64,000 bases of DNA, taken from assembly GCF_014695395.1 (NCBI RefSeq), contig NZ_JACJOF010000027.1, positions 620,001 to 684,000 on the forward strand, in the 5' to 3' direction. This DNA is from Nodosilinea sp. FACHB-131 (GTDB lineage Bacteria; Cyanobacteriota; Cyanobacteriia; Phormidesmidales; Phormidesmidaceae). Numbering within the stretch: the first letter of the stretch is position 1; each line of letters begins with the position of its first letter. Positions 24,413-33,571 of this stretch are shown here, in pieces. The notes under the pieces were generated by a model. The model saw only the letters and a list, made by a program, of their open reading frames with translations. It was not told where the DNA came from and made no database searches. Both the position numbers and the translations under genes were made by a program.

Positions 24413-24684
24413 GGGTTTAGAAAATGTGACTGCCTTAAATTGTAGGTTTATTTCACCGTTAATCGGGCGAAAAGCAGAGAAGAATTCTGCTTGTTCGAAT
24501 ATATCTAAGTGCGGCTTGGGATCCGGAGTTTTTCCGTGAAAACTCCACTTTTGGACCTGAATTTGGTTTAAAGGACGATTTAGTAACAGCGGTTACTTTC
24601 TAATGGTTAAGCAATTGATAAGCCTATTAGTGCATCAACCGTCGACTTAAGTCGTCAGTCACTCAACTAGTTTTAATAGCCAAA
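24413..24684. other. Promoter region of the guanidine-riboswitch operon
   Basis: This spacer contains the NtcA-type site (24583-24596) and the expected start of the operon transcript. An inverted repeat, AGAATTCT within GAGAAGAATTCTGCTTG near 24479, is also present. No coding frame is supported. The -10 element is not clear; TATTAG at 24625-24630 lies 28 bases after the NtcA site, a little far from the usual 20-24. Confidence 0.5.
24583..24596 (+). promoter_or_regulatory. NtcA-type binding site
   Basis: GTAACAGCGGTTAC fits the GTA-N8-TAC core bound by the cyanobacterial nitrogen regulator NtcA, with extended GTAAC/GTTAC arms. It lies about 100 bases before the riboswitch, in the promoter region of the operon. 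This implies activation under nitrogen shortage, but the pattern can occur by chance and the -10 is weak. Confidence 0.55.
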
Positions 24685-24822
24685 CGGTTTCTAGGGTTCC
24701 GGCTTGCCGCCGCTGCGGTGGAGCGTCTGGTCCGAGAGAAACCGCCAGATAAGTTATTAGCCCTGCTGTTGAAGCAGGGCTCACGGCATCTGGTACACGG
24801 CGGGATAAAAGCCCGGGAGGAT
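24685..24822 (+). ncRNA. Guanidine-I (ykkC class) riboswitch aptamer
   Basis: The conserved blocks of the guanidine-I riboswitch occur in order. CTAGGGTTCCG is at 24691-24701, CTGGTCCGAGAGAAACCG at 24727-24744 and ACACGGCGGGATAAAAGCCC at 24795-24814, followed by GGGAGG. A variable stem (GCCCTGCTGTTGAAGCAGGGC) lies between blocks two and three. This RNA binds guanidinium and switches on downstream genes. It overlaps the 5' arm of a terminator hairpin, the expected expression platform, so guanidine should allow read-through. The only downstream genes are the GS-III-like, ABC transporter, Rieske and unknown genes. No alternative RNA class fits. Confidence 0.92.
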
Positions 24823-24865
24823 AGCGAAGCATTGCTTTGCCATTCTCTCGGGCTGTTGTTTTTCA
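24810..24865 (+). terminator. Riboswitch expression-platform terminator
   Basis: A 21-base arm starting AGCCCGGGAGGATAGCGAAG (24810-24830) pairs with 24834-24854 through 17 Watson-Crick pairs, three G-U pairs and one A-C mismatch, around an ATT loop. GTTGTTTTT follows. Its 5' arm shares AGCCCGGGAG with the 3' end of the aptamer, so ligand binding should block hairpin formation. Confidence 0.9.
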
Positions 24866-24909
24866 TGACATTTTTCCTCCCACAGCACCCATCCACCCCT
24901 AACCCATCT

Positions 24910-26271
24910 ATGGCCCACCCGCTAACTCCTGAAATCGAAGCGCTGCGATCCTCTTTGGAGGCTAGGGGTGTCAAGTACGCCCTGGCTAGCTATGTGGATA
25001 TCCACGGCATGGGCAAGGCCAAAATGGTGCCCCTAACTCACCTAGGCCAAATGATGGCAGGTTCAGAGCTATTTACCGGCGCGGCCCTCGATGGGGTGCC
25101 TCAGGAGATCAGCGATGAGGAAGTCGCAGCGATGCCCGACCCGGCTTCGGCTACGGTGCTGCCCTGGAAGCCTGAAGTGGCTTGGTTCGCCAGTGATCTC
25201 TATCTCAAGGGACAGCCCTTTGAGGCCTGCTGCCGCACCATTCTCAAGCAAATGCTGGCCAAGGCGGCGGCGATGGGGTTTACGTTTAACCTGGGCATTG
25301 AGACCGAGTTCTTTATGCTCAAGGAGCACTCGGATGGGAGCTTTGGGCCGGTGAGCGATCGCGACCACCTGGCCAAGCCCTGCTACGACCTGCCCAGCCT
25401 GCTCGACAACACCCCTTGGCTGAGTGAGCTGGTGGACTACATGAACCAACTGGGCTGGGATGTCTATTCTTTTGACCACGAAGACGCTAACGGCCAGTTT
25501 GAGACTGACTTTGCCTACAGCGATGCCCTGACCATGGCCGATCGCCTCACCTTCTTTCGGCTGATGGTTAAGGAGATCGCCCGCAAGCATGGCTACTTTG
25601 CCAGCTTTATGCCCAAGCCCTTTGGCGATCGCACCGGCAGCGGTGCCCACTACAACATGTCTTTGGCCGATATCCACACCGGGCAAAACCTGTTTGAAGA
25701 CCCGGATGACCTACGCGGCTGCAAGCTGTCGAAGCTGGGCTACCAGTTTATTGCCGGGGTGCTGCGCCACGCCAAGGCCATCTGCGCCGTCACCTGCCCC
25801 ACGGTCAACAGCTACAAGCGGCTGCTGCGCCAGGGCAGCATGTCGGGTTTTACCTGGGCCCCGGTCTACATCTGTTACGGCAACAACAACCGCACCAACA
25901 TGCTGCGCATTCCTCTGGCGGGGGGCCGAGTTGAGTGCCGCGCCGCCGATATTGCCACCAACCCCTACTTGGGGGCGGCGATGATTTTGGCCGCTGGGCT
26001 AGAGGGCATTGCCGAGGGGCTCGACCCCGGTGACCCCCACACCGAAAACATGTACAACTATTCCCTAAGCGACCTGAAGACCATGGGCATCGACATGCTG
26101 CCCCGCACGCTGCAAGAGGCGATCGACGCCTTTGAGGCTGACTCCCTGAGCCAGGCCGTGATGGGGCCGCTGATGTACCAGACCTACATCGACTTTCGCC
26201 GTCGGGAATGGGAGGAGTACCACACCCACATTTCCGACTGGGAAATTAAGCGGTATCTAAAGTTTTTCTAG
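24910..26271 (+). CDS. glnT: Glutamine synthetase III-like (GlnT/GmaS-type) ligase
   Basis: This 453-residue ATP-dependent ligase of the glutamine synthetase superfamily has FNLGIETEFFML (metal-binding Glu), SFDHEDANGQFETDF, SGAHYNMSL (His/Asn region) and GNNNRTNMLRIPLAGGRVE (substrate and ATP Arg residues). It belongs to the type III glutamate-ammonia ligase/GlnT group, whose relatives include gamma-glutamylmethylamide synthetase. It may therefore join glutamate to ammonia or to an amine. ATG 24910 is required because a longer frame (from 24718) would translate the riboswitch. It is the first gene behind the riboswitch, so its substrate is probably released from, or related to, guanidine; that is inference. 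A short C-rich tract rather than a Shine-Dalgarno sequence precedes the ATG. Confidence 0.85.
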   Translation: MAHPLTPEIEALRSSLEARGVKYALASYVDIHGMGKAKMVPLTHLGQMMAGSELFTGAALDGVPQEISDEEVAAMPDPASATVLPWKPEVAWFASDLYLKGQPFEACCRTILKQMLAKAAAMGFTFNLGIETEFFMLKEHSDGSFGPVSDRDHLAKPCYDLPSLLDNTPWLSELVDYMNQLGWDVYSFDHEDANGQFETDFAYSDALTMADRLTFFRLMVKEIARKHGYFASFMPKPFGDRTGSGAHYNMSLADIHTGQNLFEDPDDLRGCKLSKLGYQFIAGVLRHAKAICAVTCPTVNSYKRLLRQGSMSGFTWAPVYICYGNNNRTNMLRIPLAGGRVECRAADIATNPYLGAAMILAAGLEGIAEGLDPGDPHTENMYNYSLSDLKTMGIDMLPRTLQEAIDAFEADSLSQAVMGPLMYQTYIDFRRREWEEYHTHISDWEIKRYLKFF

Positions 26272-26359
26272 CGATTGCCCAGACGTGTAGCTTCTCCTCA
26301 AGGGCGTCCAGATGCCCTGCAGCTTTTTCCGCAGTTTTTGAGTCTCAAATATCACCGCT

Positions 26360-27403
26360 ATGAAACGACGCACCTTTTTGCCTACGCTGTTTGCTTTCTT
26401 TTGCAGCCTGTTGATAACCGTCAGCTGCGCCCAAAATGCACCCCAGGCCGATGCCCCTGCCGATGCGCCCGCGAGCGCTACAGCTGGAGAGCCCGTGAAA
26501 CTGGGCTACAGCAGCTGGGCGGGCTGGTGGCCCTGGGCGATCGCCGAAGAAGAGGGCCTATTCGAAAAGAATGGGGCCAACGTCGAGCTGATCTGGTTTG
26601 ACGGCTACCTAGAATCAATCCAATCCTTAGCCGCCGGGCAACTTGATGCCAACAGCCAAACCCTCAACGACACCATCTCCTTTGCAGGGGATGCCGTCAA
26701 CGGCATGGTGGCGGTGCTGGTCAACGACAACTCCGCCGGCAACGACAAGGTAATTGGGGCTGAGGGCATCGACACCGTCGCCGATCTGGCCGGCAAAACC
26801 GTTGCTCTAGAGGAGGGCGTAGTGGGCGACTTTTTGCTCAGCCTGGCTTTGGAAGAGGCGGGGCTAACCCGCGACGCTGTAGAAATTAAAAATCTTGAAA
26901 CCGGGGCTGCGGCCACGGCCTTTGCTGCCGAACAGGTAGATGGCTTTGCGGGCTGGGTACCCTTCTGGGAAACGGCGCTTTCGCGCGAAGGCAGCCAGGA
27001 GCTGGCGAGCTCGGCAGATTTCCCAGGCGCGATTCCTGACCTGCTGGTGGTGACCCAAAAGCTGATCGACAGCCGCCCCGACCAGGTGCAAGCTCTGGTG
27101 AACACCTGGTTCGACATTTTGGCCTTTATCGAAGAAAACCCTGAGCGGGCCAACGAAATTATGGCGAAGCGAGCCAGCGTCAGCGACACCGAGTTTGAAA
27201 AATATACCGAGGGCACCAAAATTTTCACTCTAGATGAAAACTTAGAAGCCTTTAGCGCAGGCGGTGACGACATGAAATACATGCCCTACGCCTCTCAAAA
27301 AATGGCCGAATTCATGGTGGAGCTGAAGTTTATCCCCGAGGCCCCCGACCTAGAGGCCATTCTCGATGACCAATTTATTAAGGCCTATACCGCCAAGAAG
27401 TAG
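26360..27403 (+). CDS. ABC transporter substrate-binding lipoprotein (NMT1/TauA-like)
   Basis: The 347-residue protein starts with a lipoprotein signal (KRRTFLPTLFAFFCSLLI, Cys23 after TVS) and an Ala/Pro/Asp-rich tether. The binding domain has PVKLGYSSWAGWWPWAIAEE, GANVELIWFDGYLESIQSLA, QTLNDTISFAGD and KTVALEEGVVGDFLL, typical of the NrtA/SsuA/TauA/NMT1 group that captures nitrate, sulfonates, pyrimidine precursors or, in riboswitch-linked members, guanidine. With the downstream permease and ATPase it makes a complete importer. Position behind the guanidine-I riboswitch makes guanidinium or an alkylguanidine the leading candidate substrate. The Trp-rich SSWAGWWPW segment could supply an aromatic cage for a cation. 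Confidence 0.88.
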   Translation: MKRRTFLPTLFAFFCSLLITVSCAQNAPQADAPADAPASATAGEPVKLGYSSWAGWWPWAIAEEEGLFEKNGANVELIWFDGYLESIQSLAAGQLDANSQTLNDTISFAGDAVNGMVAVLVNDNSAGNDKVIGAEGIDTVADLAGKTVALEEGVVGDFLLSLALEEAGLTRDAVEIKNLETGAAATAFAAEQVDGFAGWVPFWETALSREGSQELASSADFPGAIPDLLVVTQKLIDSRPDQVQALVNTWFDILAFIEENPERANEIMAKRASVSDTEFEKYTEGTKIFTLDENLEAFSAGGDDMKYMPYASQKMAEFMVELKFIPEAPDLEAILDDQFIKAYTAKK

Positions 27404-27538
27404 CCGTTGATGCAAGCCCCGATCGCCGTTCTGTGGATGATGGGGGCTGATGCTTTTCAGGTTTGTTGTACGTTTGGGCTAACCCCTGTGACTCCCGCTT
27501 CCCCTTCCTTTTCCACCGCGCCCACCGCCTCCCAGGGC

Positions 27539-28330
27539 ATGAAGCCCAGTGTCTTTTGGCGGCTGGCCGATGACATTCCCAAGCCGATGAGCACGGCGTT
27601 GATGGTGCTCTCCATTGCGGTACCCTTTGCCCTCTGGTGGATAGTGGCCAGCCTAGACCTGGTGAATGACAAGTTTTTGCCCTCACCATTTCAGGTGGCC
27701 CAGGCTTTGGGCCGGCTCTGGACGGATGGCTTTTTGCTGGGAGATACCGCTGCCAGCATCATGCGGGTGACTGTGGGCTTCTTGCTGGCGGCGCTGGTAT
27801 CGATCCCCATCGGCATTGCGATGGGGGCTTTTGCTAGCGTGCGATCGCTGCTCGAACCAATTGTCGGTGTGGTGCGCTACATGCCCGCTCCCGCCTTCAT
27901 TCCCCTGCTGCTGATCTACTTGGGTTTGGGTGAAGCGCCCAAAATCGCTCTGATCTTTATGGGCACCGTGTTCTTTAACATCCTGATGATTATGGATGCG
28001 GTGAAGTTTGTGCCCAAGGCTCTGCTCGAAACCACCTACACCCTGGGCGGGCAGCGACGACAGGCGCTGTTTCAGGTGATTACGCCCTACGTGGTGCCTA
28101 ACATCATCGATACCTTTCGCATCAACATTGCCACCTCCTGGAACCTGGTGGTGGTGGCGGAGCTGGTGGCGGCAGAAAACGGCCTAGGCAAGCGGATCGT
28201 GCTGGCCCAAAAGTTCTTCAACACCGACGAAATCTTTGCCTGCCTGATCATTCTGGGCGTAATCGGCTTTGCCCTAGATTTATCGCTGCGAGGGTTGATG
28301 AAAGCCACTTGTAAATGGGCGATGGATTGA
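27539..28330 (+). CDS. ABC transporter permease (SsuC/TauC/NrtB-like)
   Basis: The 263-residue permease has about six hydrophobic helices and a coupling loop (ETTYTLGGQRRQALFQVITP followed by YVVPNIIDTFRI) of the taurine/nitrate/sulfonate type, with FIPLLLIYLGLGEAPKIALI before it. ATG 27539 gives a normal length and begins about 20 residues before the first helix. The frame is open to ATG 27410 with a Ser/Thr/Pro-rich stretch (SPSFSTAPTAS) that has no family support. It is the second component of the riboswitch-controlled importer. Confidence 0.88.
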   Translation: MKPSVFWRLADDIPKPMSTALMVLSIAVPFALWWIVASLDLVNDKFLPSPFQVAQALGRLWTDGFLLGDTAASIMRVTVGFLLAALVSIPIGIAMGAFASVRSLLEPIVGVVRYMPAPAFIPLLLIYLGLGEAPKIALIFMGTVFFNILMIMDAVKFVPKALLETTYTLGGQRRQALFQVITPYVVPNIIDTFRINIATSWNLVVVAELVAAENGLGKRIVLAQKFFNTDEIFACLIILGVIGFALDLSLRGLMKATCKWAMD

Positions 28331-28569
28331 GCGCTGGCGTTCCCTCAGCTTGTGAGGTGCGCGATAGATCCCCCGAGATCCTCGCGTTCTAAGTTTTACT
28401 CCGAACCCCGTCAAAAAGGGGCAGGGGGAATCTAACCAGGGTTATCCAACCTGCTCTATTCATCCTGAATCCGACTCAATCTAGCTTTCGTGGGCAGTGC
28501 CCACCCTACGGCGTACCCATCCACCCTCCTACCCATCCACCCGCCCACCCCTACCCCCTACTCCCCACC
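28331..28569. repeat. Repeat-filled gap inside the riboswitch operon
   Basis: The 239-base gap between permease and ATPase genes contains a hairpin (CCCC/GGGG around GTCAAAAA, near 28407-28422), one copy of the GTGGGCAGTGCCCACCCTAC palindrome (28490-28509) and a C-rich tract (28514-28569) reaching the ATG. No coding frame is present. The gap looks like stacked insertions of small repeats into an originally tight operon. Confidence 0.7.
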
Positions 28570-29343
28570 ATGCACTTAGAAATCAACAACCTCAGCAAAC
28601 AGTTCGACACCCGCCAAGGGCCGGTGGTGGCGCTCGATGACATCAACATGCACGTGGAAACGGGCGAATTTGTCTGCGTGGTCGGGGCCTCAGGCTCCGG
28701 CAAATCTACGCTGCTGCGGCTGGTGGCGGGGCTGGATATGCCCACGGCAGGAGAGATTACGGTGGATGGCCAAGTGGTGACGGGGCCAGGATCCGATCGC
28801 GGCATGATCTTCCAGAGCTACACCCTCTATCCCTGGATGACGGTGCAGAAAAATGTGGAGTTTGGCCTCAAGCTCCAGGGCGTGGGGCCGCGGGAGCGGC
28901 GAGAAATGGCTTCCTACTATCTAGATGTGGTGGGGCTGACCAAGTTTGCGCGATCGCTGCCCAAGCAACTCTCTGGCGGCATGAAGCAGCGGGTGGCGAT
29001 CGCCCGTACCCTGGCCTCGCGGCCCAAAATTATGCTGATGGATGAGCCCTTTGGAGCGCTAGATGTGCAGACCAAGGAGACCATGCAGCAATTTATGCTC
29101 GACCTGTGGAACCGCACCGGGGTGAGCATTTTGATGATCACCCACGATGTCGATGAGGCGGTGTTTCTCTCCCAGCGGATCTACGTGCTGACGGCGCACC
29201 CCGGCACCATTCAGCGAGAGGTATTTGTGGACTTGCCCAGCGATCGCACCTACACAATTCGCCGCGATCGCACCTTTCAGGACTACCGCGAAGGCATCAT
29301 GGACCTGCTGCGGGGCAAGGCAGCGCCGGCCTTGGTGAGCTGA
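28570..29343 (+). CDS. ABC transporter ATP-binding protein (SsuB/TauB/NrtD-like)
   Basis: The 257-residue ATPase is complete: Walker A VVGASGSGKST, Q-loop MIFQSYTLYPWMTV, signature QLSGGMKQRVAIAR, Walker B IMLMDEPFGALD and H-loop MITHDVDEAVFL. These are the hallmarks of nitrate/sulfonate/taurine-type importers. It powers the importer formed with the two preceding genes. Its ATG follows directly on a C-rich repeat tract, with no Shine-Dalgarno sequence. The Rieske gene follows 16 bases later. Confidence 0.92.
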   Translation: MHLEINNLSKQFDTRQGPVVALDDINMHVETGEFVCVVGASGSGKSTLLRLVAGLDMPTAGEITVDGQVVTGPGSDRGMIFQSYTLYPWMTVQKNVEFGLKLQGVGPRERREMASYYLDVVGLTKFARSLPKQLSGGMKQRVAIARTLASRPKIMLMDEPFGALDVQTKETMQQFMLDLWNRTGVSILMITHDVDEAVFLSQRIYVLTAHPGTIQREVFVDLPSDRTYTIRRDRTFQDYREGIMDLLRGKAAPALVS

Positions 29344-29359
29344 TAGGGAGTATCTAGCC

Positions 29360-30520
29360 ATGGTTTCTAGTCTGCCGCTGCAATGGTCAAAGACCAGCCC
29401 TCAGGGGGCATCGCCGGTTCCCCCCGACGCTCACGGGCTGCCGGAGCGATTTTTGCTCACCGCCGACCACTACACCAATCCTCAATGGATCCCGATAGAG
29501 CAGCAGGCGATCTTTCGCCGCACCTGGCTCTACGTGGGCGATGGCGAACTCCTCCAGCCAGGGATGGTGTGGGCCAGGTCGGTGGCGGGCGCTCCCCTGC
29601 TGATTGTTCGAGACGACGAGGGCGAGCTGCGGGCCTTTTATAACCTCTGCCCCCACCGGGCCGCAATTTTGTCGCCCCAGGCGGGCATTCATCCCTGCCA
29701 AAAGCTGGTGTGTCCTTACCACGCCTGGGTGTACGACCTCGCTGGGGAATTGGTGGGGGTGCCCTCTCAAAATCAGTTTCCAAAGTCCTTTCAAAAAGAG
29801 GATTTTGCGCTGCGATCGCTACGGCTAGAGACCTGGTCGGGCTTCATGTTTGTCTGCTTCGACGACAGTGCGCCGCCGCTAGTAGAATTTCTCGGCAGCA
29901 TCCCCGAGCACCTGGGGCAGCACCGCACCCCCGCCACCCAACCCCTGGCGGCCAAGCAGTACACCGTCGCTTGCAACTGGAAGAACTACCACGACAACAC
30001 CCTGTGCGACTACCACGTGGCGATCGCCCACCGCACCACCCTCAATCAGGTGCAAGGCCCGATTCGCCACTACCAGCACCAGCTCGAAGCCTTCGTCAAC
30101 CTGCTCTACACCCCCACCACTGCCGACTGGCAGGCCGAAAACCCTGTTCTGCCAACCCTCCAGGGTCGCAGCCGCGACGGATTTTTTACCTACGGCATCT
30201 ACCCCAATCTGCACCTGCTGGGGCTGCCCAACGGCCTGCTGGCCTGGCTGCACATCGAGCCGCTCACCGCTGAGTCTTGCCAGGTTTCCTTAGACATCTA
30301 CGGCGACCCCGAATTTTGCCCGCCCACCGACACCCTGCTGGCCGAATTTGAAGCCTTCATGCAAGAAGACATGGTGCTCACCGAAAGCGTGCAGCAAGGC
30401 TACGCCAGCGGTGCCTACACCCCCGGCCCGGTGAATGGTCTAGAAGCGCGCATCATTCACCAGCAACAACTGATCTGGGATGCCCTTGCCACCACTGGTG
30501 ATGCTGGATTAGCGGCGTAA
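29360..30520 (+). CDS. Rieske non-heme iron oxygenase, alpha subunit
   Basis: The 386-residue protein has an N-terminal Rieske [2Fe-2S] domain with ligands Cys97, His99 (NLCPHRA) and Cys118, His121 (VCPYHAW). A catalytic domain follows whose mononuclear iron ligands include His219 and His224 (CDYHVAIAH), with bridging Asp217 and a downstream acidic ligand in FMQEDMVLTESVQQG. This arrangement is closest to the choline/carnitine/betaine-type oxygenases that attack N-methyl or C-H bonds of small ammonium compounds. No reductase is encoded nearby; photosynthetic ferredoxin could supply electrons. It starts 16 bases after the ATPase, so it is co-transcribed behind the guanidine riboswitch, a setting that suggests oxidation of guanidine or an N-alkylguanidine. 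Confidence 0.88.
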   Translation: MVSSLPLQWSKTSPQGASPVPPDAHGLPERFLLTADHYTNPQWIPIEQQAIFRRTWLYVGDGELLQPGMVWARSVAGAPLLIVRDDEGELRAFYNLCPHRAAILSPQAGIHPCQKLVCPYHAWVYDLAGELVGVPSQNQFPKSFQKEDFALRSLRLETWSGFMFVCFDDSAPPLVEFLGSIPEHLGQHRTPATQPLAAKQYTVACNWKNYHDNTLCDYHVAIAHRTTLNQVQGPIRHYQHQLEAFVNLLYTPTTADWQAENPVLPTLQGRSRDGFFTYGIYPNLHLLGLPNGLLAWLHIEPLTAESCQVSLDIYGDPEFCPPTDTLLAEFEAFMQEDMVLTESVQQGYASGAYTPGPVNGLEARIIHQQQLIWDALATTGDAGLAA

Positions 30521-30654
30521 CATTGATGCCGGGCAAACACCGTTTGCCCCTACGGGAAACCCTGGTGCATTGCGCTGGTCAACGCTGGTGGGCACTGCCC
30601 ACCCTACGCTCCCTTAACCCATCCACTCATCTACCCGCCTACCCATCCACCCCT
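30521..30654. repeat. Repeat cluster between Rieske and last operon gene
   Basis: Three elements are packed in 134 bases: a hairpin GGGCAAACACCGTTTGCCC (30531-30549), one GTGGGCACTGCCCACCCTAC palindrome (30588-30607) and a C-rich CCCATCCACTCATCTACCCG-like tract (30609-30654) ending at the ATG. Confidence 0.75.
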
Positions 30655-31392
30655 ATGCCCCTCAACCCCTTCCTCGGCGTCTGGCAACGCCGCTCCATTC
30701 AGTTTGACCAAGGCCCGATCGAAACTAGCCAATCTGTCCTGTGGATTCAGGCTGAAACCTACTTCGCCGATGTGCGTAGCGCTCCCTTTGCGGGACGGCT
30801 CACGCCAGAGCGATATCGGGCAATGGACTGGCGATCGCGCTTTGACGCCGACCTGCTGGGCTTTGCCGGTACCTTCAGCTGGTCTGAGGCTCCCCCAACC
30901 TGTACCTGGCACCACCGCCTTGCCCTCACCCCGCGCCAGTGGCCCGACACCAGCAACTATCAATGGCTGGGGGCAGACGAATTCTTAGAACAGGGCACCT
31001 GCGAGGATGACGAGGGTGGTCTTCATCCCTTTGTTGAGCACTGGCATCGCCTTCACCCTGGCCCTGTGCAGGTGTGGCGTCTGGATCAGGCAGAGCAGCA
31101 GGGGCAGGCCCTCAGGGTGGGCAACTGGGCTGTCTTAGTGCATCAATGGCGCTCGCGAAGCGTCTCCAGTGGAGAATCGCCCCAAGCTGATCCCTTGCAG
31201 GAGATTGACATCTTTCGCGCGTTTTCTGCCACCGCCTGGGAGTATCGGGATGCCACTTGGCGTGCTCTGTTTGGCACTGAGACTAGCCTCGGCACCCCGC
31301 CTCGATGGACGCCGCTAGATCTAGACGATCCGCTCGGCCTATGGCAGCTAGAGCGCTCGACCCCAGTGAGCCAGAGCCTAGAGCTTAACTAA
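30655..31392 (+). CDS. Unknown protein at the end of the riboswitch operon
   Basis: I do not recognise this 245-residue family with confidence. The N-terminus (FLGVWQRRSIQFDQGPIETS followed by QSVLWIQAETYFADVR) and evenly spaced Trp and beta-strand-like segments (FAGTFSWSEAPPTCTWHHRL, VQVWRLDQ, ALRVGNWAVLVHQW) suggest a lipocalin-like or HRI1-like beta-barrel. There is no signal peptide or membrane helix. ATG 30655 follows a C-rich tract; the frame is open further back only through repeats. It follows the Rieske gene on the same strand, so it may be the last gene of the guanidine-riboswitch operon. A binding or accessory role for the oxygenase substrate is possible but unproven. Confidence 0.65.
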   Translation: MPLNPFLGVWQRRSIQFDQGPIETSQSVLWIQAETYFADVRSAPFAGRLTPERYRAMDWRSRFDADLLGFAGTFSWSEAPPTCTWHHRLALTPRQWPDTSNYQWLGADEFLEQGTCEDDEGGLHPFVEHWHRLHPGPVQVWRLDQAEQQGQALRVGNWAVLVHQWRSRSVSSGESPQADPLQEIDIFRAFSATAWEYRDATWRALFGTETSLGTPPRWTPLDLDDPLGLWQLERSTPVSQSLELN

Positions 31393-31501: not shown

Positions 31502-33571
31502 ATGAGTCCAAAAGTTCTTCCTGGCCAAAGCTACCCCCTGGGGGCCACCGTCTACGCTGTGGGGGTAAATTTTTGCCTTTACTCCAAACACGCTACCGGC
31601 ATAGACCTGCTGCTGTTTGAGGCCGATGACCTCACTGAGCCCAGCCGAGTGATCGCCTTCGATCCGCTGTGGAACCGCACGTTTTACTACTGGCACCTGT
31701 TTGTGCCGGGGCTAAAAAGCGGGCAGGTCTACGCCTACCGCGTCCATGGCCCCTTTGACCCGGCCCGTGGCCACCGCTTTGATGCCACTAAGGTACTGCT
31801 CGACCCCTACGCCCGCGCCATTGTCGGTGACGACATCTACGATCGCAGCCGCGCCATCGGCCCCGGCGACAACTGTGCCACCGCCATCAAGGGGGTAGTG
31901 GTTGACACCCGCAACTACGACTGGCAGGGCGATCGCCCCCTGCACATTCCCTACTCCAGCAGCGTTATCTACGAAATGCACGTGGGTGGCTTTACCCGCC
32001 ACTCCTCATCGGGACTGCCCGAGGAGCAGCGGGGCACCTACGCGGGGCTAATTGAAAAAATCCCCTACCTACAAGCGCTGGGCATTACGGCGGTGGAACT
32101 GCTGCCCATTCACCAGTTCGACTCCCAGGATGCGATGCCTGGGCGAGAAAACTACTGGGGCTATAGCACCCTGGGCTTTTTTGCTCCCCACCGCGCCTAC
32201 AGCTCCCGCAAAGATCCCCTGGGGCCGGTGAACGAGTTTCGCGACATGGTCAAGGCTCTGCACCGAGCCGGTATTGAAGTCATTCTCGACGTGGTGTTCA
32301 ACCATTCTGCCGAGGGCAACCATGAAGGCCCCACCCTGAGCTTTAAGGGCATCGACAACGAAACCTATTACATGCTCGAAGACAACCCAATCTACTACTC
32401 CAACTACAGCGGTTGCGGCAATACTCTGTCGCCCAACCACGCTGTCGTGGGGCGCATGATTCTCGACAGTCTGCGCTATTGGGTGTCGGAGATGCACGTG
32501 GATGGCTTTCGCTTTGACCTGGCTTCGGTGATGTCGCGCGACATGGCGGGCAACCCCCTGGAAGACCCGCCGATTCTGTGGAATATTGAGTCGGAGCCGA
32601 TTTTGGCGGGCACCAAGATCATTGCTGAGGCCTGGGATGCGGCGGGGCTATACCAGGTGGGCAGCTTTATTGGCGATCGCTTTGCCGAATGGAATGGCCC
32701 CTACCGCGACCACGTGCGCCAGTTTATCAAAGGTGACGAGGGCGTGGTGCCCGACCTGGCCGCCCGCCTGTTGGGCAGCCCTGACATCTACCAAAAGCCT
32801 AACCGCGAGCCCAACCGCAGCATTCACTTTGTCACCTGCCATGATGGCTTTACCCTCAACGACCTGGTCTCGTATAACCAAAAGTACAACGAGGCCAACG
32901 GCGAGCATAACCGCGACGGCACCGACGCCAACTACAGCTGGAACTGCGGCGTAGAAGGCCTCTCGGCCCCACCCGAGGTCGAGCAGCTGCGCCAGCGGCA
33001 GATTAAAAACTTTCTCACCCTGCTGTTTATGTCCCAGGGCACTCCCATGCTGCTGATGGGCGACGAGGTGCGCCGCACCCAGCGGGGCAATAACAACGCC
33101 TATTGCCAAGACAACGACCTGAGCTGGTTTAACTGGGATGCCGTGGAGAAGGAACAGCCGTTGCTGCGCTTTACCCAGGGGTTGATCCACTTCATTCAAA
33201 ACCTGAAGGTGTTTCAGCTCCAGCACCTGCTGCGGGTGACCACCACCTGGCACTACGAACCCCACATTGTCTGGCACGGCACCGCTCTCAACCAGCCCGA
33301 CTGGTCGGAGCACTCTCGCACCCTGGCCTTTACCCTGCGCTACCCCGACGCCAAGGAGCAAATTCACGTCATGCTCAACGCCTACTGGGAGGCGCTGATG
33401 TTTAACCTGCCGGGGCTGGGTCCCCACGATCGCTGGCATCGCATTGTCGATACTGCTGTGCCGCCCCCCCGCGACTTTTGCTACCCGGAGGAAGCCCCAG
33501 TGTTTGAAAGCGACCTCTACCCGATGGGGCCGCGATCGACTGTAGTGCTGATGAGCCAGCCGCAGGGTTAG
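31502..33571 (+). CDS. glgX: Glycogen debranching enzyme (isoamylase type)
   Basis: The 689-residue GH13 enzyme cleaves alpha-1,6 branches of glycogen. An N-terminal CBM48 domain (YPLGATVYAVGVNFCLYSKH) is followed by the catalytic barrel with VILDVVFNHSAEGN (region I), VDGFRFDLASVM (nucleophile Asp, region II), IIAEAWDAAGLYQ (acid Glu, region III) and FVTCHDGFTLNDLV (region IV). All catalytic residues are intact and the length is normal for GlgX/TreX. The product feeds night-time glycogen use. It stands alone between the riboswitch operon and recF. Confidence 0.95.
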   Translation: MSPKVLPGQSYPLGATVYAVGVNFCLYSKHATGIDLLLFEADDLTEPSRVIAFDPLWNRTFYYWHLFVPGLKSGQVYAYRVHGPFDPARGHRFDATKVLLDPYARAIVGDDIYDRSRAIGPGDNCATAIKGVVVDTRNYDWQGDRPLHIPYSSSVIYEMHVGGFTRHSSSGLPEEQRGTYAGLIEKIPYLQALGITAVELLPIHQFDSQDAMPGRENYWGYSTLGFFAPHRAYSSRKDPLGPVNEFRDMVKALHRAGIEVILDVVFNHSAEGNHEGPTLSFKGIDNETYYMLEDNPIYYSNYSGCGNTLSPNHAVVGRMILDSLRYWVSEMHVDGFRFDLASVMSRDMAGNPLEDPPILWNIESEPILAGTKIIAEAWDAAGLYQVGSFIGDRFAEWNGPYRDHVRQFIKGDEGVVPDLAARLLGSPDIYQKPNREPNRSIHFVTCHDGFTLNDLVSYNQKYNEANGEHNRDGTDANYSWNCGVEGLSAPPEVEQLRQRQIKNFLTLLFMSQGTPMLLMGDEVRRTQRGNNNAYCQDNDLSWFNWDAVEKEQPLLRFTQGLIHFIQNLKVFQLQHLLRVTTTWHYEPHIVWHGTALNQPDWSEHSRTLAFTLRYPDAKEQIHVMLNAYWEALMFNLPGLGPHDRWHRIVDTAVPPPRDFCYPEEAPVFESDLYPMGPRSTVVLMSQPQG

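Follow-up and report, generated by a model that had tools for sequence, protein, structure and literature searches.

A guanidine-I riboswitch in Nodosilinea sp. FACHB-131 very probably controls the importer half of a split GdmH regulon together with accessory enzymes

In Synechocystis PCC 6803, gdmH, ghaA and ghaB share an operon with the genes of an ATP-binding cassette (ABC) importer that has been described as a guanidine importer (PMC12186494, PMC12930504). For marine Synechococcus and Cyanobium, a 2023 study described a Rieske gene 3' of a guanidinase cluster under ykkC control and interpreted it as indicating iron use (PMC10119275). The guanidine-I operon of Vreelandella boliviensis encodes MgdH, a 2-oxoglutarate methylguanidine hydroxylase, followed by the beta-barrel lyase MgdL, in which Asp49 and Arg51 are required for breaking N-(hydroxymethyl)guanidine (PMC12508155). 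Here we analysed 64,000 nucleotides of Nodosilinea sp. FACHB-131 (hereafter the window; contig NZ_JACJOF010000027.1, positions 620,001 to 684,000), in which a guanidine-I riboswitch precedes six genes on the + strand, encoding a glutamine synthetase (GS)-like ligase, a three-gene ABC importer, a Rieske oxygenase and an HRI1-like barrel protein. This operon is very probably the importer half of a GdmH regulon, separated from its hydrolase and joined by accessory enzymes. Its features are the following.

24680..24821, + strand: guanidine-I riboswitch aptamer (RF00442, 78.9 bits, E 2.2e-12, full length)
24811..24864, + strand: intrinsic terminator, a 19-pair hairpin (24811-24853) with a U-rich tail, from sequence and folding
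24910..26271, + strand: GS-like ligase of the gamma-glutamylmethylamide-synthetase type, with Ser187 and Asp200 in the amine pocket (TIGR03105, 589.7 bits, cut-off 469.6)
26360..27403, + strand: SsuA-family lipoprotein, the substrate-binding component of the ABC importer (TIGR01728, 269.6 bits, cut-off 163.5)
27407..28330, + strand: ABC permease (PF00528, 84.4 bits)
28570..29343, + strand: ABC ATPase (PF00005, 113.9 bits)
29360..30520, + strand: Rieske non-haem iron oxygenase, alpha subunit (PF00355, PF00848)
30655..31392, + strand: HRI1-like lipocalin-type beta-barrel protein, reading frame opening at 30523 (PF16815, 31.1 bits, cut-off 27)

The aptamer is the sole above-threshold Rfam match in the whole window (cmscan; gathering threshold 63 bits). 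A reading made earlier from the sequence alone had proposed this aptamer, a matching terminator and six co-oriented genes, all of which were borne out by the Rfam, hairpin and profile matches. The terminator hairpin and the aptamer match have positions 24811-24821 in common. Because the 5' arm of the terminator overlaps the 3' end of the aptamer, the two structures should be mutually exclusive, and the riboswitch is by its layout an ON switch. The 62-nucleotide terminator stretch folds at -32.9 kcal/mol, and none of 200 shuffles is as stable as the 191-nucleotide leader as a whole (z -5.4); hairpin 24811-24853 was absent from the output of a simple terminator scan. The permease reading frame opens at a TTG (27407), with the ATG at 27539 the likelier start, and the top NCBIfam models for the ATPase (SaoA, TauB and NtrCD) all score under their cut-offs. 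A glycogen-debranching (GlgX) gene begins past the operon, at 31502.

Pfam and NCBIfam profiles identified no guanidine hydrolase and no carboxylase among the six genes. The sequence-only reading had noted that no known guanidine-degrading enzyme was present, which holds for the operon but not for the genome. A second guanidine-I switch (RF00442 at C20:322413) lies on the window's own contig, 322 kb away. It is followed by the gene of a 398-residue arginase-family protein, whose top match in the PDB is 7esr/7oi1 (824.6 bits; next 590.7), and by homologues of HypA (122.3 bits, cut-off 88.1) and HypB (305 bits, cut-off 121.2). Structure 7oi1 is the Synechocystis guanidine hydrolase; the names GdmH, GhaA and GhaB are assigned here from these structure and profile matches and from the Synechocystis cluster. 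By sequence, this second unit is identified as gdmH-ghaA-ghaB, a predicted hydrolase gene with two nickel helper genes. No importer match was found beside the second switch in the 11.6 kb fetched. The genome also encodes urease alpha.

The importer in the window is of the SsuA/TauABC kind. Relatives of its substrate-binding protein, permease and ATPase sit behind gdmH in the usual order elsewhere, and by blastp the window genes and their counterparts in gdmH operons are 47-75% alike. The same division recurs in the genus, where gdmH is present in 20 of the 26 sampled genomes. All 12 genomes with a window-type operon (our own and the 11 behind loci L139-L149) carry gdmH with a switch just upstream, and no importer match was found near gdmH in any of them (stretches of 5.6-8.3 kb fetched for the 11). 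The switch core precedes the ligase in 11/11 fetched relatives and all six genes are present in eight; L145 and L148 stop at contig ends, while L147 gave neither a permease nor an HRI1-like match. The operon resembles that of Synechocystis PCC 6803 in its guanidine-I control and related importer genes, but differs in that the genus splits hydrolase and importer into two switch-led units and adds the ligase, Rieske and HRI1-like genes.

That the operon is a self-standing guanidine route needing no hydrolase, as the sequence-only reading had supposed, is very unlikely. The operon itself holds neither hydrolase nor carboxylase, as such a route would have it, but gdmH stands behind its own switch, with no importer found there, in every one of the 12 genomes, and both ligase and Rieske genes occur inside gdmH operons elsewhere. 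The argument from a missing hydrolase to a new route was therefore rejected, since gdmH and HypA/HypB-like genes are present in the same genome. As a caution, a new route should not be inferred from a single operon before a second switch has been sought in the genome.

The analysis used two sets of cyanobacterial loci. L011-L078 were picked for having a switch (68 loci covering 69 of 70 same-class places, the window being the 70th), and L139-L238 by ligase or Rieske matches. Switches within loci were scanned with a mismatch-tolerant core pattern, by which diverged copies can be missed. The 68 switch loci, fetched from the phylum sample, contain gdmH in 53 cases, a window-type Rieske in 14 and a window-type ligase in 6, and their usual gene order is gdmH-ghaA-ghaB followed by substrate-binding protein, permease and ATPase. 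In the class sample, 205 of 388 genomes carry RF00442; counts uncorrected for kinship are 75/85 for genomes with a ligase of this clade against 130/303 for others, and 45/53 for those with a Rieske of this clade against 160/335. The recurrent association found across cyanobacteria supports the link of ligase and Rieske to guanidine loci drawn in the sequence-only reading.

The ligase set comprises 89 matches of at least 56% identity outside the window; 14 rows below 50% were kept aside as a comparison and two partial matches of genome G400 were left out. A switch is present in the locus of 46 rows, gdmH in 21, and a switch, gdmH or carboxylase-pathway genes in 50. Where a 1200-residue neighbour was called guanidine carboxylase, the name is presumptive, based on matches annotated as urea carboxylase. 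The remaining 39 loci showed none of these as fetched; 13 of the 39 adjoin a class-I amidotransferase, and an Rfam search of six no-switch ligase loci found none. The sequence-only reading had named riboswitch-free homologues acting on unrelated substrates as evidence against itself, and this applies in part, in that copies without a switch occur. The ligase is often, not exclusively, a guanidine-regulon gene. In a quick tree with support from the Shimodaira-Hasegawa-like approximate likelihood ratio test (SH-aLRT) only, the window ligase falls within a 20-row clade (SH-aLRT 99), in which 12 rows come from window-type operons and 8 are sister-genus copies. The loci of seven of these eight include both gdmH and a switch, and the contig of the eighth (L155) begins at ghaA. 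The ligase lies between ghaA and ghaB in the sister genera (L067, L150-L154, L156) and after ghaB in Rieske-bearing genomes of 3.0-3.7 Mb (L024, L053, L060, L062, L216, L217). In a third arrangement it adjoins a different ABC system and a creatininase-family gene.

The closest solved structures to the ligase are glutamate-methylamine ligase 9qur (429.6 bits), GmaS 7cql (347.5 bits) and, third, GS 8s59 (269.5 bits). Together with the residues below, this agrees with the earlier assignment to the group that includes GmaS, nearer to glutamate-methylamine ligase than to ammonia GS. Both acids of the ammonium site are absent: the Asp50 place holds Thr in 87/90 clade members and the Glu-flap place Trp in 88/90 (Thr56 and Trp316 in the window), which is not the pattern of an ammonia GS. 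Asp50 and the flap Glu are missing from GmaS as well, and the catalytic Asp177, Glu186 and Arg312 of GmaS (roles as in PMC7948447) correspond to Asp189, Glu198 and Arg328 of the window ligase, kept in 89, 90 and 90 of 90. The two enzymes differ in the methylamine pocket. Of its seven residues in GmaS (Tyr147, Gln175, Asp177, Glu179, Glu186, Asn188 and Lys30'), five are kept in the window ligase; Gln175 is replaced by Ser in 90/90 clade members and Asn188 by Asp in 89/90, whereas the 14 comparison rows, other GS-like proteins from the fetched loci, retain Gln and Asn throughout.

By sequence, the Ser/Asp pocket marks a separate ligase subfamily, perhaps with a different amine as substrate. Since GS 8s59 likewise has Asp at the second place, the pocket change alone does not point to guanidine. 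In three switch-less loci of the clade (L178, L200 and L213), a protein resembling trimethylamine N-oxide (TMAO) demethylase (830-852 bits, cut-off 1100) points to N-methyl amines. L178 carries two tandem copies of the ligase gene along with a creatininase-family gene and the TMAO-demethylase-like protein. Two simpler identities were rejected: a plain GmaS, because two of seven pocket residues differ, and a plain ammonia GS, because both ammonium-site acids are missing.

A related alternative is that the ligase serves as an extra ammonia-assimilating enzyme for the ammonium released by GdmH and urease, with the Rieske doing an unrelated task. The NCBI family is named type III glutamate-ammonia ligase, the regulon yields ammonium, and GmaS itself takes ammonium with a Michaelis constant of 8.7 mM (PMC7948447). 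The residues at the ammonium site argue otherwise, as do the methylamine ligase, rather than a GS, as top solved match and the recurrence of the Rieske at guanidine loci of several families. We consider this alternative quite improbable.

Seven residues of the Rieske oxygenase (C97, H99, C118, H121, H219, H224 and D337) are invariant in 20 rows and are assigned as the ligands of the cluster and of a 2-His-1-Asp iron site. The motif HDNTL[CD]DYHV is found in 44 of 47 rows of the Rieske clade, compared with none of 10 from the other Rieske group in these loci. The top solved match is carnitine monooxygenase (118.2 bits), in line with the kinship to N-methyl-attacking enzymes noted in the sequence-only reading, and the top NCBIfam model is glycine betaine monooxygenase (118.8 bits, cut-off 670). 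Both of these enzymes have N-alkyl compounds as substrates. No gene for a beta subunit or a reductase adjoins the window Rieske. The Rieske closes gdmH operons in several families. Its clade covers 53 genomes: the locus includes a switch in 35 and gdmH or gha genes, with no switch detected, in 3, and 5 yielded no locus. The marine clusters (PMC10119275) share a ykkC switch, a TauABC-like importer and a terminal Rieske with the window operon; they differ in holding gdmH within the operon, and the available part of the paper mentions no GS-like ligase or HRI1-like gene. From gene order, these clusters are likely the loci of family f20 in our sample, whose Rieske proteins are 33-38% identical to that of the window.

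HRI1-like genes lie 3' of the Rieske in the genus loci, in L042 (with a shorter reading frame) and in L221. The relatives we found came from 18 loci, all cyanobacterial by title, and elsewhere from one weak Streptomyces match (E 0.05). The best structural model of the barrel has a predicted local distance difference test (pLDDT) score of 83.7, while two of the five models average near 41. It matches yeast Hri1 (3rby_A) with a Z of 16.6 (next row 10.9); the other structural matches are generic lipocalin-type barrels, uninformative on function. Asp39-x-Arg41, Trp10, Trp30 and Glu34 are invariant in 13 rows. The resemblance to the MgdH/MgdL operon comprises a guanidine-I switch and an oxygenase followed by a beta-barrel with Asp-x-Arg. 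MgdH, by contrast, is a 2-oxoglutarate enzyme and not a Rieske, and its operon belongs to the carboxylase pathway and not to that of GdmH. The two barrels were likened through the published description of MgdL, and the parallel is an analogy.

Taking these observations together, we favour, with moderate confidence, a reading in which the importer half of the GdmH regulon stands under its own switch with accessory enzymes that include proposed alkylguanidine roles. Free guanidine would stabilise the aptamer, the terminator would not form, and both switch-led units would be transcribed. The importer would bring in guanidine and probably N-alkylguanidines too; GdmH would convert guanidine to urea and ammonium, and urease would then cleave the urea. 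The Rieske, presumably fed by ferredoxin, may oxidise the N-alkyl group of an alkylguanidine, for example methylguanidine to guanidine and an aldehyde, and the HRI1-like barrel may hasten decay of the hydroxylated intermediate. The ligase would couple glutamate to a small amine and not to ammonia, the most likely source being an alkylamine from the breakdown of alkylguanidines or other N-methyl compounds. We propose demethylation of alkylguanidines chiefly because of the parallel with MgdH and MgdL, and a formaldehyde-dehydrogenase homologue above cut-off in the genome fits this proposal, although relatives of that protein are common. The regulon assignment on its own is very probable; an alkylguanidine role for the accessory enzymes is tentative. 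A fully specified O2-dependent pathway, in which the Rieske hydroxylates N-methylguanidine, the barrel is the lyase and the Ser/Asp ligase glutamylates the released amine or guanidine, seems unlikely. If correct, it would make the barrel a counterpart of MgdL, whether distantly related or independent, and would give an HRI1-family protein its first function.

Several observations weigh against the reading that we favour. The published guanidine-I switch did not bind methylguanidine (PMC12508155), so that induction would need guanidine first. Among the 53 Rieske genomes, 10 have neither a switch nor gdmH or gha genes in the locus (3 at contig ends), and no Rfam guanidine-I switch was found in L158 or L159. 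The accessory genes also part company: gdmH operons in L012, L019, L042, L051, L221 and L225 have the Rieske without the ligase, and L150-L156 have the ligase without the Rieske. The Asp-x-Arg motif occurs in a Streptomyces relative of the barrel with no annotated guanidine gene nearby. Finally, the N-methylglutamate route would use gamma-glutamylmethylamide, and no SoxA-like subunit above cut-off was found in the genome.

In another explanation, the ligase would use guanidine or an alkylguanidine directly as the substrate for glutamylation, and the resulting gamma-glutamyl product would be stored, detoxified or attacked by the Rieske. The two genes do share one guanidine-controlled unit, and Ser and Asp replace the Gln and Asn of GmaS across the ligase clade. 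A precedent is the degradation of 1-naphthylamine and aniline, in which a Rieske dioxygenase acts after a GS-like ligase (PMC11335346). The NpaA1 system likewise combines the two in one cluster; it differs from the window, where the Rieske has no adjoining beta subunit or reductase, the genes are separable across genomes and control is by guanidine. Against a glutamylguanidine product, ligase and Rieske are each found alone, the Asp stands at the same place in ammonia GS 8s59, and the 13 switch-less rows beside an amidotransferase have the same pocket. Moreover, no paper with the word glutamylguanidine was found in the literature searched. We regard this explanation as rather unlikely. A strict ligase-then-Rieske pathway was not retained, because either gene occurs without the other.

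Under the favoured reading of a separated importer half with accessory enzymes, the cyanobacterial guanidine regulon exceeds a hydrolase and an importer. It is modular: its components can come apart, each with a switch of its own, and it is accompanied by two accessory enzymes, each encoded by a single gene, that use oxygen or ATP. Should these enzymes act on alkylguanidines, widespread phototrophs would have methylated guanidines as a nitrogen source. The split of the regulon and the ligase subfamily are new variations on the known guanidine-I/GdmH system, and a Rieske in its cluster had been reported before. The sequence-only reading had known of no description of the combination of ligase and oxygenase; a Rieske at a guanidinase cluster does appear in PMC10119275. 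Neither for such a ligase nor for an HRI1-like protein in a guanidine-I or gdmH cluster did the literature searched give a description; it covers subscription papers incompletely, and we do not claim that either is unpublished.

Other arrangements of these genes were observed in the loci. In L158 and L159, gdmH-ghaA-ligase-ghaB-importer-Rieske form one run, where control is either lost or diverged. In six switch-led loci (L160, L165, L169, L171, L174 and L184), the same ligase subfamily occurs alongside a different ABC system, a protein with a metallo-beta-lactamase fold, a creatininase-family protein (PF02633; under the NCBIfam creatininase cut-off) and, in four of the six, an isochorismatase-family protein; these units look like parts of a wider guanidino- or creatinine-type nitrogen pathway. 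In 11 loci without a switch (L182, L187, L194, L198, L202, L204, L206, L207, L210, L211 and L213), the ligase stands beside the class-I amidotransferase. These loci also have a second, divergent GS-like gene (41-43%) and an iron alcohol dehydrogenase, and most have an aldehyde dehydrogenase too. By their look, the amidotransferase-linked loci encode a gamma-glutamyl amine pathway. In L229, L230 and L231 (genus g27), the Rieske immediately precedes the switch, in the same orientation, and the importer is divergent; L231 has carboxylase-pathway-like genes behind the switch.

Transport genes vary as well. Switch loci L020, L031, L063 and L077 encode a protein of the sodium:solute symporter family, directly behind the switch in L020, which may be another kind of guanidine importer. 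Many 2-Mb relatives outside the class carry a guanidine-I switch, and all of the same-phylum matches belong to family f31; in L005 the switch precedes a SugE/Gdx-type exporter (132.6 bits, cut-off 126). Within the window, the sequence CCCATCCACC recurs at 24888, 28516, 28532 and 30642, in the gaps ahead of three operon genes. It occurs at 8 more places in the window, on both strands, as a repeat family that is perhaps located in leaders.

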